Shown here one piece after another: positions 35,349 through 57,042 of a stretch of DNA of 64,000 nt (its first letter is position 1; every line of letters starts with the position of its first letter). The notes beneath the pieces were generated by a model. It searched no databases. It saw only the letters and a list, made by a program, of their open reading frames with translations, and was not told the origin of the DNA. This stretch comes from Ignavibacteria bacterium RIFOXYB12_FULL_35_14 (lineage in GTDB: Bacteria > Bacteroidota > Ignavibacteria > Ignavibacteriales > Ignavibacteriaceae), in the NCBI GenBank assembly GCA_001803045.1, contig MHAR01000012.1, positions 62,001 through 126,000 on the forward strand, read 5' to 3'. The position numbers and the translations under genes were made by a program.

Positions 35349-35530
35349 CAGTTTCTTCCACTTCCTTCCCTAACCTTAGCAATCTAGAATCACCTCTAAT
35401 GCCTTAACCTTACTGTCTTCTTATGAAACACTAATTGAAATAGAAATTACATTTATGCTGATAAGGTTGAAACGCTTAATGGCAATCTGAGTCACTAAAG
35501 TTAAATAATTTGATAAATCTCCTCAGTTAA

Positions 35531-35581
35531 CTAACCCAGTTTCTCACGATGGCAATATGCAATTCTAAGAAACTGGGTTAG
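35531..35581. repeat. AACCCAGTT-type palindrome, copy A
   Basis: CTAACCCAGTTTCT (35531-35544) and AGAAACTGGGTTAG (35568-35581) are perfect 14-bp inverted arms around a 23-base loop. Related palindromes occur at 36727-36780, 53599-53650 and 56961-57011. It directly precedes an AGATATGCC palindrome. Confidence 0.8.
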
Positions 35582-35589
35582 TAGTTTTT

Positions 35590-35743: not shown

Positions 35744-36709
35744 ATGTCTAGAAAAAAAATTGCTATCATCGGCGGGGGACAAATCGGAGGCGTCCTCACT
35801 CAACTAATTGCTCAAAAACAACTTGGAGATGTCGTTCTATTCGATATAGTCCAGGATATGCCGCAAGGAAAAACTCTTGATATTGCCGAAGCTGCACGTG
35901 TTGATCTTTTTGATGTAAATATTAAAGGAACCAACGATTATCAAGATATTAGCGGAGCTGACATTATCATTATCACTGCAGGTTTGCCAAGAAAACCCGG
36001 TATGAGCCGTGATGATTTGCTTACCACAAATGCTCAGATTATGAAAACCGTTGCAGAAAATATTAAGAAGTTCGCTCCAAATTCAATCGCAATTATCATC
36101 TCTAATCCTCTTGATGCAATGGTAACCTTATTCACTAAAGTAACAGGATTTCCAACCAACCGAGTTGTTGGACAAGCGGGCATTCTCGATTCCTCACGCT
36201 TTGCGACTTTTATTGCCTGGGAACTTGGAGTTTCGGTAAAAGATATCAATGCGTTGGTTTTAGGCGGACACGGAGATACAATGGTTCCAATTGTAAGATA
36301 TGCAAATGTTAATGGAATTCCTGTTATGGAACTACTTGAGAAAAAATATAATGACAAAACAAAAGCTAAAGAAGTTATGACTGCTCTCGTTGAGAGAACA
36401 AAACAAGCCGGCGGTGAAGTTGTGAAATTATTAAAAACCGGATCAGCATTTTACTCCCCCTCCTCCTCTGCAATTGCGATGACTGAAGCTATTATTTATG
36501 ATGAAAAAAGAGTATTACCTGTCTGTGCTTACCTAAATGGCGAATATGGAGTGAAAGGTTACTTCGTTGGTGTTCCCGCTGTCTTGGGAGCTAATGGAGT
36601 TGAAAAGATCATTGAATTTGCTTTGAATGAAGAAGAACAATCGCTGCTCAATAATTCGGTGAATGCCGTTAAATCTCTCGTAGTTGATATGGAGAGGTTG
36701 GGATTTTAA
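35744..36709 (+). CDS. mdh: Malate dehydrogenase (LDH-like type)
   Basis: A 321-residue NAD-dependent enzyme interconverting malate and oxaloacetate in the TCA cycle. Visible features: dinucleotide-binding [16 protein letters not shown], the aspartate ending strand 2 in [10 protein letters not shown] (NAD preference), the substrate loop [14 protein letters not shown] with arginines diagnostic for malate rather than lactate, [19 protein letters not shown], and the catalytic histidine in [10 protein letters not shown]. Length and sequence style resemble the homotetrameric MDHs of Chlorobi and Bacteroidota. A good ribosome-binding site (AGGGAG) precedes the ATG. It appears monocistronic with a palindrome 20 bases after the stop. 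Confidence 0.95.
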
Positions 36710-36726
36710 GACTATTGTATTTATTT

Positions 36727-36780
36727 ACGAACCCAATTTCTTCACTATAAAAATTCCGTATGTCAAGAAATTGGGTTTGT
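36727..36780. repeat. AACCCAATT-type palindrome, copy B
   Basis: AACCCAATTTCTT (36730-36742) and AAGAAATTGGGTT (36765-36777) are perfect inverted arms; AC/GT pairing extends them past one mismatch. It lies just after the mdh stop and could terminate mdh transcription. It belongs to the family at 35531, 53599 and 56961. Confidence 0.75.
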
Positions 36781-36854
36781 TTGTGTTTAAAAGATTGTGA
36801 TCAGATTTACTAGACATTTACTTTTCCTCTTTAGTTTTATGTTTTTGAAACTAG

Positions 36855-37106
36855 ATGAAATTGGAGTTCCACTTGGATAAAAGTAAAATATATCCGTGTG
36901 TTTATACAAGTACAACATTTGGGAAAGGTGTCCTACACTTAGATAATGGAAATGGTAAGCCTTGTTGCGGGCACAGAAAATATGCTGTAAAAAAGTGGTA
37001 TAAACAGAATTCGTTTCCAGAATGTATAAGGTGCGCACTTAAACAACCTGATTTAGAATTAAGAAAAGAAATTTTAGATATACAATGTAACAAAACAGCC
37101 ATATAA
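36855..37106 (+). CDS. Small Cys-rich protein, first gene of cassette-like array
   Basis: An 83-residue protein of no recognised family. Cysteines in PCCGHRKY and ECIRCALK could form a zinc site (C-C-x-H ... C-x-x-C). It is preferred over opposite-strand frames because it has a cassette-like setting: 14 bases upstream stands GTTTTATG (36834-36841), and its stop codon lies inside CATATAAC (37100-37107), nearly the exact reverse complement. This pairing of start and end cores is what integron cassettes show. It has the same orientation as the next three genes. Coding status is plausible but not certain. Confidence 0.5.
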   Translation: MKLEFHLDKSKIYPCVYTSTTFGKGVLHLDNGNGKPCCGHRKYAVKKWYKQNSFPECIRCALKQPDLELRKEILDIQCNKTAI

Positions 37107-37291
37107 CTCGCGTCTCAGCCCGCCCGCTTTTTCAAAACGGTCGTAGTGAGTTTTTCGGGTTTGGTTTTTCAAAGTAAGTTGTTCTTAAAAGTGTGATTGT
37201 AATACAAAACTGATTTATAAAAATAATGTTGCGTTGACTTTTGCTGCATTGTCGTTTTGGGCGGCGGGCTAAACGCAACTACATTATACGG
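37100..37291 (+). repeat. attC-like site 1 (integron-type recombination site)
   Basis: This begins at the R''-like CATATAAC overlapping the stop of the preceding gene and ends at the R'-like ATTATACGG before the DUF4238 gene. Inner arms pair: AGCCCGCC (about 37117) with GGCGGGCT (37263-37270), plus flanking AAAACG/CGTTTT. Its right half (AATAATGTTGCGTTGACTTT, then TGCTGCATTG) is homologous to the right half of site 2. The length of about 190 bp is near the upper end for attC sites. Confidence 0.6.
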
Positions 37292-37298
37292 TAATATA

Positions 37299-38252
37299 AT
37301 GGGTTCTCCCAAAAAGCAACATTTTGTATCGCAATTTATTCTTCGGAATTTCTCAATTGATAATAAAGACCAATTATGGGTTTACGATAAGTGGGAAGAA
37401 AAAGAATATAAATCTTCAATTCGTGATTCTGCCAGTGAAAATTATTTTTATGAATTTAGTAAAGATGAAAATCAAACTAATACTGAGCTTAAATTGTCAC
37501 GACTAGAATCAGATTGTAAATCGATCTTTAAAAAGATTATCGAAGAAAAAAGTATAAAAAGCTTAACTAACGTAGAACATTTAATGATTTGTTTATTCAG
37601 TGCTGTGCAATATTTACGAACGAACAAGTCAAGAGAACTAATTGAACAAATGAATAAAGGACTCGTTGATAAAGTTCTGGAGAGGAGAAACCTTATCGAT
37701 GATTTTGAAAAAATAATGAATCTTTCCAAAGATGAGATTAGAGATATTAGCATTATTGAACTTAATAGTTCTGCTGGGAAATTAGCACCTTATTTTGTTG
37801 AGAAAGAGTTTGCCTTAGCTGAATCCCTATCGGATGAATATTTCTATATTTCTGACAATCCAATTACTTTATATAATCATTTGCCTCGTCCTTTCAGAGG
37901 GAACTTGGGATTGAAGCTAAAGGGAATAGAAATCCAATTCCCAATATCTTCTAAATTATGTATTGTATTTATGTGTCCAGATGTTGTTAATGAAGTTCGA
38001 TTAAGTATTGCGAAAGCAAATTCATATAAAGAATGCCCCGTTGACATGAGGGTAGCAGAAGAGTATTTAGCATTATTTGATGATTGCATCTGCGCCAAAT
38101 TCACAAGAGAAAATGTCGAATATCATAACTCTCTTCAAGTCAATCAATCATCAAGATATATTTATAGTTGCACAAATAATTTTGATCTTGTAAAAGATAT
38201 GATAAAATCAGATCCAGAATTAAAGAATCCTAAAAGAATTGATTTCTTCTGA
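37299..38252 (+). CDS. DUF4238 domain-containing protein (cassette gene)
   Basis: This 317-residue protein matches the DUF4238 family by its N terminus, PKKQHFVSQFILRNFS, and the LWVYDKWEEK that follows; the central part is helical (IFKKIIEEKSIKSLTNVEHL) and FYISDNPITLYN around residue 188 is a conserved strand. The biochemical function of the family is unknown, though members are common in accessory DNA. I use the ATG at 37299; the frame runs back to a TTG at 37257 inside the attC-like site. The unit is bounded by TTATACGG (37284-37291) and CCGTATAA (38257-38264), exact reverse complements. Confidence 0.82.
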   Translation: MGSPKKQHFVSQFILRNFSIDNKDQLWVYDKWEEKEYKSSIRDSASENYFYEFSKDENQTNTELKLSRLESDCKSIFKKIIEEKSIKSLTNVEHLMICLFSAVQYLRTNKSRELIEQMNKGLVDKVLERRNLIDDFEKIMNLSKDEIRDISIIELNSSAGKLAPYFVEKEFALAESLSDEYFYISDNPITLYNHLPRPFRGNLGLKLKGIEIQFPISSKLCIVFMCPDVVNEVRLSIAKANSYKECPVDMRVAEEYLALFDDCICAKFTRENVEYHNSLQVNQSSRYIYSCTNNFDLVKDMIKSDPELKNPKRIDFF

Positions 38253-38256
38253 TATA

Positions 38257-38449
38257 CCGTATAACAAGTTCTTCAAGGCCGACCGCTTTAAACTGTTTCG
38301 GCATTTGTGTAATTAAAAAATTGTGGTGTAAAAGTTAGTTGCTCATTAAAGATAGTTAACAAAACAAATTTATAAATAATTATTGGCGTTAGCTTTTCAA
38401 TGCTGCATTGCTGTGTTGGACGTCGGTTTAAAAACAACGCCGTTATGCC
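38257..38449 (+). repeat. attC-like site 2
   Basis: The R''-like CCGTATAAC (38257-38265) is just after the DUF4238 stop and the R'-like GTTATGCC (38442-38449) just before the HNH gene. Inner arms include AAGGCCGACCGC paired imperfectly with GACGTCGGTTT. The segment TTATAAATAATTATTGGCGT, then TAGCTTTTCAATGCTGCATT, is clearly related to site 1. Start TATAACAAG and end GCCGTTATGCC are typical of Vibrio-type attC repeats. Confidence 0.65.
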
Positions 38450-38453
38450 TATA

Positions 38454-39215
38454 ATGATGAATAATATTTTTATAAGATTAACAAAAATCCAACAAGAGGT
38501 TTTAGAACTTCTTTTTGATGGAACTATTATGACAATTGATAGGATGAATCTGGCATCAATTGGAAACAGAAATGTTGCTCCGAATACACGTTACTTTCTT
38601 ACAGACAATAATCTTGTAACAAGAAAAGATAAAACTAAGTCAATTAACACAAAAGGTAATGGATACATCATTTCGGAAAAAGGACGATATACTTTAAATG
38701 AAAATAGGAATATAAAAAGAAGAGGAACGCCAAGAATTTTATTAGAAGAAAAAAAATGTGGAAAGTGTAAAATTATTAAACCTATTTCCGATTTTGTTTC
38801 AATCTATGGTTTTAAAAATCCTCGTGGAAAATATTGTCATGATTGCTTCCTGTCAATTCAACAAGATCACGCTATTTCATTAATGGAAGGAAAGAATTTT
38901 TGTCTCTATTGCGGCGAGAAAATTTCCAAAGCATATGATTGGACAATAGATGGGAAATCAACCAAAACATATCTTCATAGAGATCATATGGATCCGCTTT
39001 CACTTGGTGGAGAAGATATTGATAATAACACAGTTTATTGTTGCACAAACTGCAACATAAAAAAAGGGAATAAAACTTTTAGTGAGTGGTTGAAAACGCT
39101 TGAATCTAATTATGCAGATTTAGCAAGAGAAATATATATCAAAAAGCATAAATATATTCCAGAGGAATTTAAACCTTCTCCAACAGAAATAATAATTACA
39201 CTAAGTATAAAATAG
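38454..39215 (+). CDS. HNH endonuclease domain protein (cassette gene)
   Basis: A protein of about 253 residues. The N-terminal 90 residues resemble a DNA-binding helical domain (LTKIQQEVLELLFDGTIMTI). A cysteine cluster follows (CGKCKIIKPISDF, KYCHDCF), then the HNH core: CLYCGEKIS, HRDHMDPLSLGGEDIDNN as the catalytic H-D-H segment, and CCTNCNIKKGNKTF. HNH proteins cut DNA in restriction, homing and phage-defence settings; the target is unknown. I start at the ATG at 38454 because the upstream frame lies in the attC-like site. The unit is bounded by GTTATGCC and GGCGTAAC, complementary with one mismatch. Confidence 0.82.
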   Translation: MMNNIFIRLTKIQQEVLELLFDGTIMTIDRMNLASIGNRNVAPNTRYFLTDNNLVTRKDKTKSINTKGNGYIISEKGRYTLNENRNIKRRGTPRILLEEKKCGKCKIIKPISDFVSIYGFKNPRGKYCHDCFLSIQQDHAISLMEGKNFCLYCGEKISKAYDWTIDGKSTKTYLHRDHMDPLSLGGEDIDNNTVYCCTNCNIKKGNKTFSEWLKTLESNYADLAREIYIKKHKYIPEEFKPSPTEIIITLSIK

Positions 39216-39373
39216 GCGTAACATCTTTAATAAGTAAAAAGTCAATAGGATGCACTAATTCTAAAGTAAATAATATTTGCAAAAAAGTTCTTTGTTCTAT
39301 TTAAGAGTGATTTGAAATCACTAGTTTCAAAAACAATCGGCTGTTGTGTTTTAACATAACATGCCGTTAGGCG
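39215..39373 (+). repeat. attC-like site 3
   Basis: The R''-like GGCGTAAC (39215-39222) overlaps the HNH stop. The site ends at the R'-like GTTAGGC (39366-39372), which fits the integron core GTTRRRY exactly. The right arm TGTTTTAACATAACATGCCG resembles the right arm of site 2. The middle is AT-rich with an internal hairpin (AGTGATTTGAAATCACT). Confidence 0.6.
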
Positions 39374-39396
39374 GTTAAGCCTTCTATGGAATTACT

Positions 39397-39825
39397 ATGG
39401 CATTGAATAGGATCGAAAAGAGATCCCAAAAAGGCATTCAAAAGGTTCTCAAAAAAATAGAGAACGGAACTTTCATTTGTAAATCGCGTCAAGCGGTCGG
39501 TAGTTCAGCGATTGGAAAACCAGTCGATTTACAAATTTCTAACAAGTCTACAAAAAGAAATCTTGTTGCTGTCGAAATTTCAAATGTGAATACAACTCAA
39601 CTAGTAGGCGAAGCTACTCGATTATACTTTGATTCCATACCGCTGAAACTTCTCGTTCTTCACCGCGGTAATACGCCAAAGAATGGGAAGGAGACATCCG
39701 AAAAAATTCTTTGCGCTCTTTATGGGCAAAAACAAATCCAAGATACACCTTCCCGTGTTACTTGGTACAATGATAAAAAATCTCTGGATGCTGTGTTACG
39801 AGAACTCTTAAATAAATTGACTTAA
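39397..39825 (+). CDS. Hypothetical protein, fourth cassette gene
   Basis: A 142-residue basic protein of no recognised family. The central stretch KPVDLQISNKSTKRNLVAVE followed by ISNVNTTQLVGEATRLYFD has a D-x(13-16)-E pattern somewhat like PD-(D/E)xK nucleases, but the final lysine is missing, so no activity is claimed. It starts at the ATG at 39397. The unit begins with GTTAGGCGGTTAAG (39366-39379) and ends with CTTAACCGCTTAAC (39821-39834), reverse complements with one mismatch, and the stop codon lies inside the end core, as in the other three units. Confidence 0.65.
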   Translation: MALNRIEKRSQKGIQKVLKKIENGTFICKSRQAVGSSAIGKPVDLQISNKSTKRNLVAVEISNVNTTQLVGEATRLYFDSIPLKLLVLHRGNTPKNGKETSEKILCALYGQKQIQDTPSRVTWYNDKKSLDAVLRELLNKLT

Positions 39826-40047
39826 CCGCTTAACCCCTTTGATAAATAAAAAGCCCCTCTAAAGGCGGGTAAGCAATAGGAAATAGTAGTACCATGCAAA
39901 ATTCCACTTTGGCGGATTGCAAAAAGTTTTCAACCTTAGGTTGATAAAATTGAGTTTTTATTAGACCGACTTAAACAACAAACCGATGCAATTAATTATA
40001 GATAGACTCAAGGGTTGTAAAGAATTTTCGAATTCAGCCCAACAAAA
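39826..40047. other. Non-coding tail of the cassette-like array
   Basis: This starts with the R''-like GCTTAAC (39828-39834) of the fourth unit; no matching R'-like core or further gene was found, so a fourth attC-like site, if any, is degenerate. A small palindrome TCAACCTTAGGTTGA is present at about 39938. The region ends at the duplicated rpmA terminator. Confidence 0.5.
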
Positions 40048-40073
40048 AACCCTCCGAGCGGAGGGTTCTTTTA
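40048..40073. terminator. Duplicated rpmA-type terminator hairpin
   Basis: AACCCTCCG (40048-40056) and CGGAGGGTT (40059-40067) form a 9-bp stem with A and T tracts on either side, so it could act in both directions. It is a near copy of the hairpin after intact rpmA at 41345-41369 and is followed by a decayed copy of the rpmA 3' end. Confidence 0.75.
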
Positions 40074-40090
40074 TAAACTGTGTTTCGTGA

Positions 40091-40222
40091 TTATGCGGGG
40101 TCGATATTGATTTATTTTCTCTCGCCTCTTTTAGTTTCAAACTTTACCTTTCCATCTTTTACAGCAAATAGAGTGTCATCGCCCGCACGCATTACATTTC
40201 TGCCAGCATGAAATTTTGTTCC
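40091..40222 (-). pseudogene. Decayed duplicate of the rpmA (L27) 3' end
   Basis: The minus strand reads [20 protein letters not shown], then [16 protein letters not shown], a stop, and INIDPA, matching the last 44 residues of L27 encoded at 41388-41642 with a few substitutions and a TAA where the intact gene has TAT (Tyr). Upstream of GTKF the similarity ends. Together with its terminator, the block 40037-40222 is a diverged direct copy of 41333-41520. It is non-functional as a ribosomal protein gene. Confidence 0.85.
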
Positions 40223-40296
40223 ACTTGGGCTAACAAAACATTTTTGAGAAATGGCAATAAATAAATTTTATGATGTCTTGAAATAAAACCTTATAA

Positions 40297-40329: not shown

Positions 40330-40608
40330 ATGAAACTAAGCGAATCGGTAAAATCAATAAGTTACCTAAAAGCTAATGCTGCACAGTTGATAGAGGATGC
40401 AAATAAAAATCAAAAAACATTTGTCATTACTCAAAATGGAGAGGCAAAAGTAATTGTGCAGGACATTAAAGCTTATGAAAAAACTCAAGAAACCTTAGCT
40501 CTTCTAAAAATATTGTCAATGAGCAGCGAGAACATAGAAAATTCAAAAGCTAAAGGAATAAAAGAAACTTTTTCTGATATCAGAAAAGAATTAAAAATTC
40601 ATAAATAA
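40330..40608 (+). CDS. Phd/YefM family antitoxin
   Basis: A 92-residue antitoxin with the Phd fold: an N-terminal DNA-binding part (SVKSISYLKANAAQLIEDAN), a beta strand pair (TFVITQNGEAKVIVQDI), and a helical toxin-binding C terminus. It neutralises the adjacent ParE/RelE-like toxin and represses the operon. The toxin gene starts 2 bases after its stop. The pair lies between the intact and decayed copies of the rpmA 3' end, in the same orientation as the cassette-like genes. Confidence 0.88.
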   Translation: MKLSESVKSISYLKANAAQLIEDANKNQKTFVITQNGEAKVIVQDIKAYEKTQETLALLKILSMSSENIENSKAKGIKETFSDIRKELKIHK

Positions 40609-40610
40609 AA

Positions 40611-40934
40611 ATGAACTACAAATTGCTGATTGATCCCTTAGCTAAAAAAGATATTATAGAGATTTACAATTATGTCGCTGTAGACGATTCCGTCGAAAAT
40701 GCCGACAAATTGCTCAAGAACTTGGAAAGAACATATTTAAGCTTAGAAAAACTTCCATTGAGAGGACATATTCCAGAAGAATTAAGAGGTACTGGTATAA
40801 AAAGATTTCTTGAAATTCATTTTAAACCTAATCGAATAATCTATGAAATAATAGATAACATTGTATATGTTCATTGTGTAGTAGATGGAAGAAGAAATAT
40901 GCAGGAGCTATTATCCAGCAGATTGCTTAGGTGA
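40611..40934 (+). CDS. RelE/ParE family toxin
   Basis: A 107-residue toxin with the ParE/RelE fold: LLIDPLAKKDIIEIYNYV (N-terminal helix), SLEKLPLRGHIPEELRGTGI (loop), FLEIHFKPNRIIYEI and VYVHCVVDGRRNMQELL. ParE toxins inhibit DNA gyrase and RelE types cut mRNA on the ribosome; the sequence alone does not decide. The PLRGHIPEEL and final R-R-N-M-Q-E-L-L pattern is common in ParE-type members paired with Phd antitoxins. It is tightly coupled to the antitoxin upstream and overlaps the next frame by 4 bases. Confidence 0.88.
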   Translation: MNYKLLIDPLAKKDIIEIYNYVAVDDSVENADKLLKNLERTYLSLEKLPLRGHIPEELRGTGIKRFLEIHFKPNRIIYEIIDNIVYVHCVVDGRRNMQELLSSRLLR

Positions 40935-41323: not shown

Positions 41324-41344
41324 ATTCTAATTTTGCCAACAAAA

Positions 41345-41369
41345 AACCCTCCGCGTGGAGGGTTCTTTT
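41345..41369. terminator. Terminator of rplU-rpmA
   Basis: AACCCTCC (41345-41352) and GGAGGGTT (41357-41364) form a stem. On the minus strand it is followed by a run of T and lies 19 bases after the rpmA stop. The plus-strand side has CTTTTA, so it may also end the lipoprotein transcript. Confidence 0.75.
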
Positions 41370-41387
41370 ATAAATTTTTCTTTGTGA

Positions 41388-41642
41388 TTATGCGGGGTCG
41401 ATATTAATATATTTTCTTTCGCCTCTTTTAACTTCAAACTTAACTTTACCATCTATTAAAGCAAACAGAGTGTCGTCACCAGCGCGCATTACATTTCTGC
41501 CAGCATGAAATTTTGTCCCTCTTTGACGAACAATAATATTCCCGGCTAAAACTTGCTCTCCGCCAAATCTTTTAACACCCAAACGCTGAGCATTGCTGTC
41601 TCTTCCATTACGAGTTGAACCTTGACCTTTTTTATGTGCCAT
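41388..41642 (-). CDS. rpmA: 50S ribosomal protein L27
   Basis: An 84-residue component of the large ribosomal subunit near the peptidyl-transferase centre. The sequence [30 protein letters not shown] and [15 protein letters not shown] is canonical. The start is the ATG at 41642, so no cleavable Firmicutes-type N-terminal extension is present. It follows rplU by 12 bases in the usual L21-L27 operon. A second, broken copy of its 3' half lies 1.3 kb downstream at 40091-40222. Confidence 0.98.
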
Positions 41643-56876: not shown

Positions 56877-56960
56877 TCATTCTTATTTTCTTTTTTTTAA
56901 CTATAACACATTTTTTCAACTAATAATTCACTTATGCAGGGTGCTGAGGAAGATTCGCAA

Positions 56961-57011
56961 ACAAACCCAGTTCCTTTGACTTTAATATTATGCTTTAGGA
57001 ACTGGGTTTGT
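56961..57011. repeat. ACAAACCCAGTTCCT palindrome, copy D
   Basis: ACAAACCCAGTTCCT (56961-56975) and AGGAACTGGGTTTGT (56997-57011) are perfect 15-bp inverted arms. The flanks extend the family: GAGGAAGATTCGCAA on the left resembles AAGGAAAATTCGTAA at about 58650, and ACTAACGTGAGTAAT on the right is related to GTAACTCACGTTAC at 58626. It lies between fmt and the cystathionine beta-synthase gene. Confidence 0.8.
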
Positions 57012-57042
57012 AGTCTTCACTTTTACTAACGTGAGTAATAAT

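Follow-up and report, generated by a model that had tools for sequence, protein, structure and literature searches.

Integron integrases (IntI) recombine the folded bottom strand of attC sites, cutting between G and TT of the R' core, and an extrahelical base in the L'' arm is a feature of the attC sites that have been studied. Chromosomal integrons in which intI points in the direction of the cassettes are a known kind. Cassette arrays with no integrase nearby, for which IntegronFinder uses the term CALIN, are roughly as common as complete integrons (PMC9024848). The same work has already reported complete integrons in Ignavibacteriae, and IntegronFinder seeks no attI outside class 1 integrons (PMC9024848). 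It has also been proposed that IntI can act in trans on CALINs (PMC9668308). CALINs may be integron wrecks, secondary-site insertions or working satellites.

The window analyzed here is a stretch of 64,000 nucleotides (contig C12, positions 62001-126000) from a genome of 4.1 Mb in 95 contigs. The source belongs to the order Ignavibacteriales, in agreement with the initial annotation, which had called the chromosome Ignavibacteria-like from the sequence alone. Between mdh and rpmA the window holds four plus-strand genes with non-coding sites between them, and we consider it very probable that they form a CALIN, an array of integron cassettes that lacks an integrase, with four cassettes and in partial decay. 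The left chromosomal flank is mdh (35744-36709, plus strand; malate/lactate dehydrogenase family), whose orthologue is closely followed by rpmA in most relatives; rpmA (41388-41642, minus strand) is the opposite flank. All four same-strand genes that had been annotated were confirmed. Cassette 1 (gene at 36855-37106, plus strand) encodes a cysteine-rich protein of 83 aa with no family, cassette 2 (37299-38252, plus strand) a DUF4238 protein (PF14022, E 1.4e-40), cassette 3 (38454-39215, plus strand) an HNH endonuclease (PF01844, 9e-8, and HNH families in PHROGs), and cassette 4 (39397-39825, plus strand) a protein of 142 aa with no family, for which no PDB or plasmid relative was found. As to a defence role of the cassettes, we found HNH-domain similarity only and no PADLOC system.

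Further features were observed around the array. Directly behind it, at 40330-40934, lies a Type II toxin-antitoxin pair consisting of a Phd/YefM antitoxin and a ParE toxin; toxin-antitoxin pairs are frequent in integron arrays. The 3' end of rpmA is duplicated together with its terminator (40039-40236 and 41336-41533, 86% identical), and a toxin-antitoxin pair and one further ORF lie between the two copies. The partial copy is nearer to the rpmA of its own genome than to that of G001, a genome of the same genus. Similar intergenic hairpins, AACCCAGTTTCTT..AAGAAACTGGGTT, occur at 35529-35583, 36726-36781 and 56960-57012, one of them just 3' of mdh, and are probably terminators or a small repeat family.

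The non-coding segments that had been annotated between the genes correspond to attC sites at 37100-37291 (site 1), 38258-38450 (site 2) and approximately 39213-39374 (site 3), all on the plus strand. Sites 1 and 2 are of type A and score 160 and 185 bits, respectively, with covariance model R1, values that are partly by construction because the model was built from sites of the window genome including these two. Site 1 has a covarying stem and matches a site on contig C42 of the same genome at 69%, and its bottom strand would be the predicted recombining strand; site 2 is 77-78% identical to C42 sites. The two are alike over about 120 bp (71%), which bears out the earlier claim that they share homologous sequence, and both are homologous to sites on C42 and C52 that lie directly behind integron integrase genes. 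In the bottom-strand stem of the seven seed sites, changes on both sides were seen in 12 of 20 pairs, and an unpaired, extrahelical G in the L'' arm (column 232) is invariant across all seven, sites 1 and 2 included. By homology and covariation, then, these two sites provide at least two attC with a conserved bottom-strand stem. Over 62 related sites, the stem is paired in 91.6% of cells as against 72.9% for shuffled and 34-43% for slid alignments, with 222 double changes as against 68; the alignment of the 62 sites was fitted to the structure, so that the pairing figures lean towards it. When sites 1 and 2 were folded as single strands, their energies were no better than those of shuffles. 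As R' is part of the following cassette, a naive scanner for R''/R' palindromes failed to pick up sites 1 and 2; it gave mostly chance hits or terminator hairpins and was replaced by the covariance model.

Of the large attC-like sites that had been proposed, the first two stand, whereas site 3 is a degenerate attC of a different type (type B) and the array ends in a half-site. Site 3 was not detected by the type A covariance model, and both of its halves are common to a site at 82.4 kb of contig C21 in the same genome. The terminal half-site (39821-39850, plus strand) consists of an end core, complementary to the cassette start at 11 of 12 positions, and the left half of a type B attC that resembles those of site 3 and of the C21 and C52 sites; no right half was found by the model. 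We also considered site 3 and the last half-site as the two ends of an IS110/IS1111-type element inserted in an attC, an idea prompted by the same left half adjoining an IS110-like transposase on C52, and dropped it as the main reading: on C21 both halves of the site are present although no IS is. On C52 itself (L042, 3465-4890) an apparently damaged IS110-like transposase gene lies between a type B attC left half and a type A attC without R'', and looks like an IS that targets attC sites.

Because IntI cuts between G and TT, the TTRRRY of a cassette's own site is expected at its front and the remainder at its back, as is the case in this array. Comparing the start core (R') with the cassette's own end core (R'') over 12 positions, we found complementarity at 10 of 12 for unit 2, 10 of 12 for unit 3 and 11 of 12 for unit 4, where 0.012, 0.007 and 0.002 such matches, respectively, are expected by chance in 150 bp. 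The proposed start core of unit 1 (GTTTTATG, 36834-36841, plus strand) is unreliable: it is complementary to its own end at 8 of 12 positions, which is not above chance (0.33 expected in 150 bp; such a match arises about every 450 bp). The initial annotation had described every unit as beginning with a core complementary to its own end. This holds far above chance for units 2-4 and fails for unit 1, whose core had already been called weak and which has no reliable start core. In a larger set of 26 cassettes from 12 arrays of the window genome and its relatives, the agreement between a start core and its own end is 7.8 of 9 positions, compared to 5.1 +/- 0.26 for shuffled partners and 6.1 in the best of 10,000 shuffles; the cores, which had been noted to differ between units, are unit-specific by this test. 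Complementarity to the own end is a mark of cassettes that circularize through their own attC. Three end cores had been placed at stop codons and do overlap the stops of genes 1, 3 and 4, and the end core of gene 2 lies a few bases past its stop codon.

The sites are repeated, palindromic and intergenic, and an Rfam search found no family that matches them, all of which would also suit a family of palindromic intergenic repeats lying between unrelated genes with no relation to integrons. However, their orientation with the genes is strict, their cores are unit-specific, the same sites are found in order behind IntI and attI, and the cassettes are replaced unit by unit. The core test and the order IntI-attI-attC effectively refute such a repeat family, and we regard it as extremely improbable.

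No integron integrase (TIGR02249 match) was found on contig C12, so that the absence of an integrase near the array, as annotated initially, extends to the whole contig, and no intI adjoins the array. The search of the full genome that had been suggested at that stage did reveal IntI genes on other contigs, namely on C11/C42 and on C68 or C51/C52, the contig ends overlapping exactly by 45-57 bp. On C42 and C52, intI precedes the cassettes in the same orientation, and attI comes after the stop codon of intI. Among 41 genomes, 18 have both attC and IntI, 12 have neither, nine have attC only and two have IntI only (p=0.0025, a value that ignores the relatedness of these genomes). GIY-YIG elements split the IntI genes of the window genome, which makes the current activity of these genes doubtful. 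These mini-elements are 278-315 bp long, with perfect inverted repeats of 11-13 bp (CCCGTGAGATA..TATCTCACGGG) and one intact GIY-YIG ORF of 85-88 aa. The copies found lie at 700-1010 of L038 (C11), 43-320 of L043 (C42), 18118-18433 of L041 (C68), 1-279 of L042 (C52) and 13116-13394 of L045 (C79). All 5 of 5 are in tyrosine recombinase genes, at differing positions: integron integrase genes on C11, C42, C68 and C51/C52, and a XerC-like gene on C79. Removal of each element restores the reading frame, and the elements are possibly spliced, bypassed or simply disruptive.

The stops of mdh and rpmA are about 50-130 bp apart in 20 relatives. In the same-genus genome G001, whose mdh is 92% identical, the gap holds a different cassette array, with genes that we named by inspection as a PLD-like protein, a small membrane protein, a trypsin-like protein and others. 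This array is split over two contigs whose ends overlap by 20 bp; the cassette that spans the break bridges them through its core pair GTTATACCTC/GAGGTATAAC. A homologue of the DUF4238 protein of cassette 2 was found in one of 78 relatives (G027, 27% identical), where it is itself a cassette, flanked by an attC site on either side and with the perfect cores GTTATGTGT/ACACATAAC. From the different cassettes of G001 and the DUF4238 relative as a cassette it follows that exchange proceeds unit by unit, at least from species to species, and it is between species only that such gain and loss was seen. The initial annotation had raised two cases that would speak against an array, namely four genes kept as a fixed block and a lack of similar sites elsewhere. 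Both came out in favour of the array: at the mdh-rpmA gap, G001 has other cassettes, so that in this comparison between species the genes are not a fixed block, and similar sites are present elsewhere in the window genome, where they directly follow true IntI genes, as well as in 27 of 41 related genomes. When genome records were scanned with a portion of the attC consensus, most of what came up were MAGs of Ignavibacteria/Ignavibacteriales and Bacteroidetes, together with Stygiobacter.

In order to define attI, the stretch from the IntI stop to the first cassette was compared in several genomes, giving a sequence of about 140 bp (GGATGATAGATATGCA..TATTTTTAAATA..TTGGAACGTATATATGCAGCTGC.GCATATATACGTTCC..CAGTATAAGTAATA, followed by GTTA). 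This attI is absent from the window array and present at the orthologous locus of G001. Without intI, it heads integrase-less arrays at this mdh locus of G001, on C21 in the window genome and, three times, in G002, and since G002 is a single-contig genome, its three copies are no binning artefact. Orphan copies of this kind in the window genome and relatives lie at 7297-7439 of L136 (C21, minus strand), 2549-2690 of L078 (G001, minus strand), 7309-7457 of L143 (minus strand), 2213-2360 of L144 and 3542-3686 of L147. With a cut-off of at least 31 bits, the attI model found 34 copies in the 41 genomes, 27 of them without intI; 11 of these 27 have a listed same-strand attC behind them, and in none is an attC wrongly placed. 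A re-scan of selected loci added five to those with a correctly ordered attC; one of the five is weak, and another is truncated by the end of its contig.

The lack of attI at the window locus could mean that there was never one between mdh and rpmA and that IntI put the cassettes straight into a secondary, attG-like site there; several single attC elsewhere in the genome are likewise without an attI. However, the orthologous array of G001 starts with a full attI at the same place, and direct insertion appears unlikely to us.

A second attI type, ending in TAATCGGCTCAATTAATA before GTTAT, was found after IntI genes in the window genome (L043 on C42, 366-587; L042 on C52, 558-777) and in G018. 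That it differs from the type of the orphan copies suggests a turnover of integrases in Ignavibacteriales. In both the window genome and G002, the attI type of the resident IntI differs from that of the orphan copies, as would be expected if old integrons had lost intI. The array may accordingly be what remains of a complete integron, with intI, attI and cassettes, which the ancestor of the genus carried in the mdh-rpmA gap and whose intI was lost, and CALINs are commonly read as degraded integrons (PMC9024848). Although this origin is quite possible, we hold it to be somewhat short of probable: no intI remnant was detectable upstream of any of 16 orphan attI sites (0.3-2 kb of sequence searched), and the attI homology begins close behind the point where the stop codon of intI would be.

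More tentatively, the integrase-less arrays of Ignavibacteriales might be satellite platforms, each with its own attI of about 140 bp, a sharp boundary and no intI remnant, several per chromosome and served by one intI in trans; the mdh-rpmA gap would then be one such platform, decaying in the window. The absent intI remnants favour satellite platforms, whereas the relic of a full integron is favoured by the mismatch in attI type between resident IntI and orphan copies, seen in the window genome and in G002. If the resident IntI uses orphan attI, one integrase would feed several cassette platforms per chromosome. The attI of an order could here be defined by comparison, and it heads integrase-less arrays that include the sister array at the mdh locus.

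The claim of a CALIN-type array is supported by the homology of its attC to IntI-associated sites, the covariation of the stem, the complementarity of the cores, the exchange of cassettes in G001, the attI at the same locus there, the DUF4238 relative as a cassette in G027 and the joint presence of IntI and attC among the 41 genomes. Against it stand a locus without attI or intI, a unit 1 core at chance level, a site 3 that is weak under the type A model, the interrupted IntI genes, the folding energies of the first two sites and an exchange of cassettes seen between species only. We propose as the most likely course that each cassette was taken up individually at an attI behind mdh, through an IntI in trans or through an intI that was later lost; attI is still found at the orthologous locus of the sister species G001. 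In the window lineage, attI would afterwards have been lost, the front core of unit 1 would have become unrecognizable and the last site would have been left without its right half. We infer this order of events, with an array that may by now be mostly frozen.

Compared to the described systems, the array resembles the CALINs of IntegronFinder in having several attC, same-strand cassettes and no integrase nearby, and differs from a typical CALIN in that only two of its sites are well-formed attC and that the orthologous array of a congener begins with attI (PMC9024848). As with the Xanthomonas CALINs, arrays that lack an integrase sit at several set positions of the chromosome while intI lies in another part of the genome; in the portion of that account considered here, no attI is described before the Xanthomonas arrays, whereas attI copies were found in Ignavibacteriales (PMC12444791). 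The integrons on C42 and C52 of the window genome, with intI upstream on the same strand and attI after its stop, are like the same-direction chromosomal integrons, unlike the window array, which has neither intI nor attI. The window array is itself an ordinary, eroding CALIN of a known kind, and the unusual parts are the orphan attI sites and the GIY-YIG mini-elements that interrupt IntI genes.
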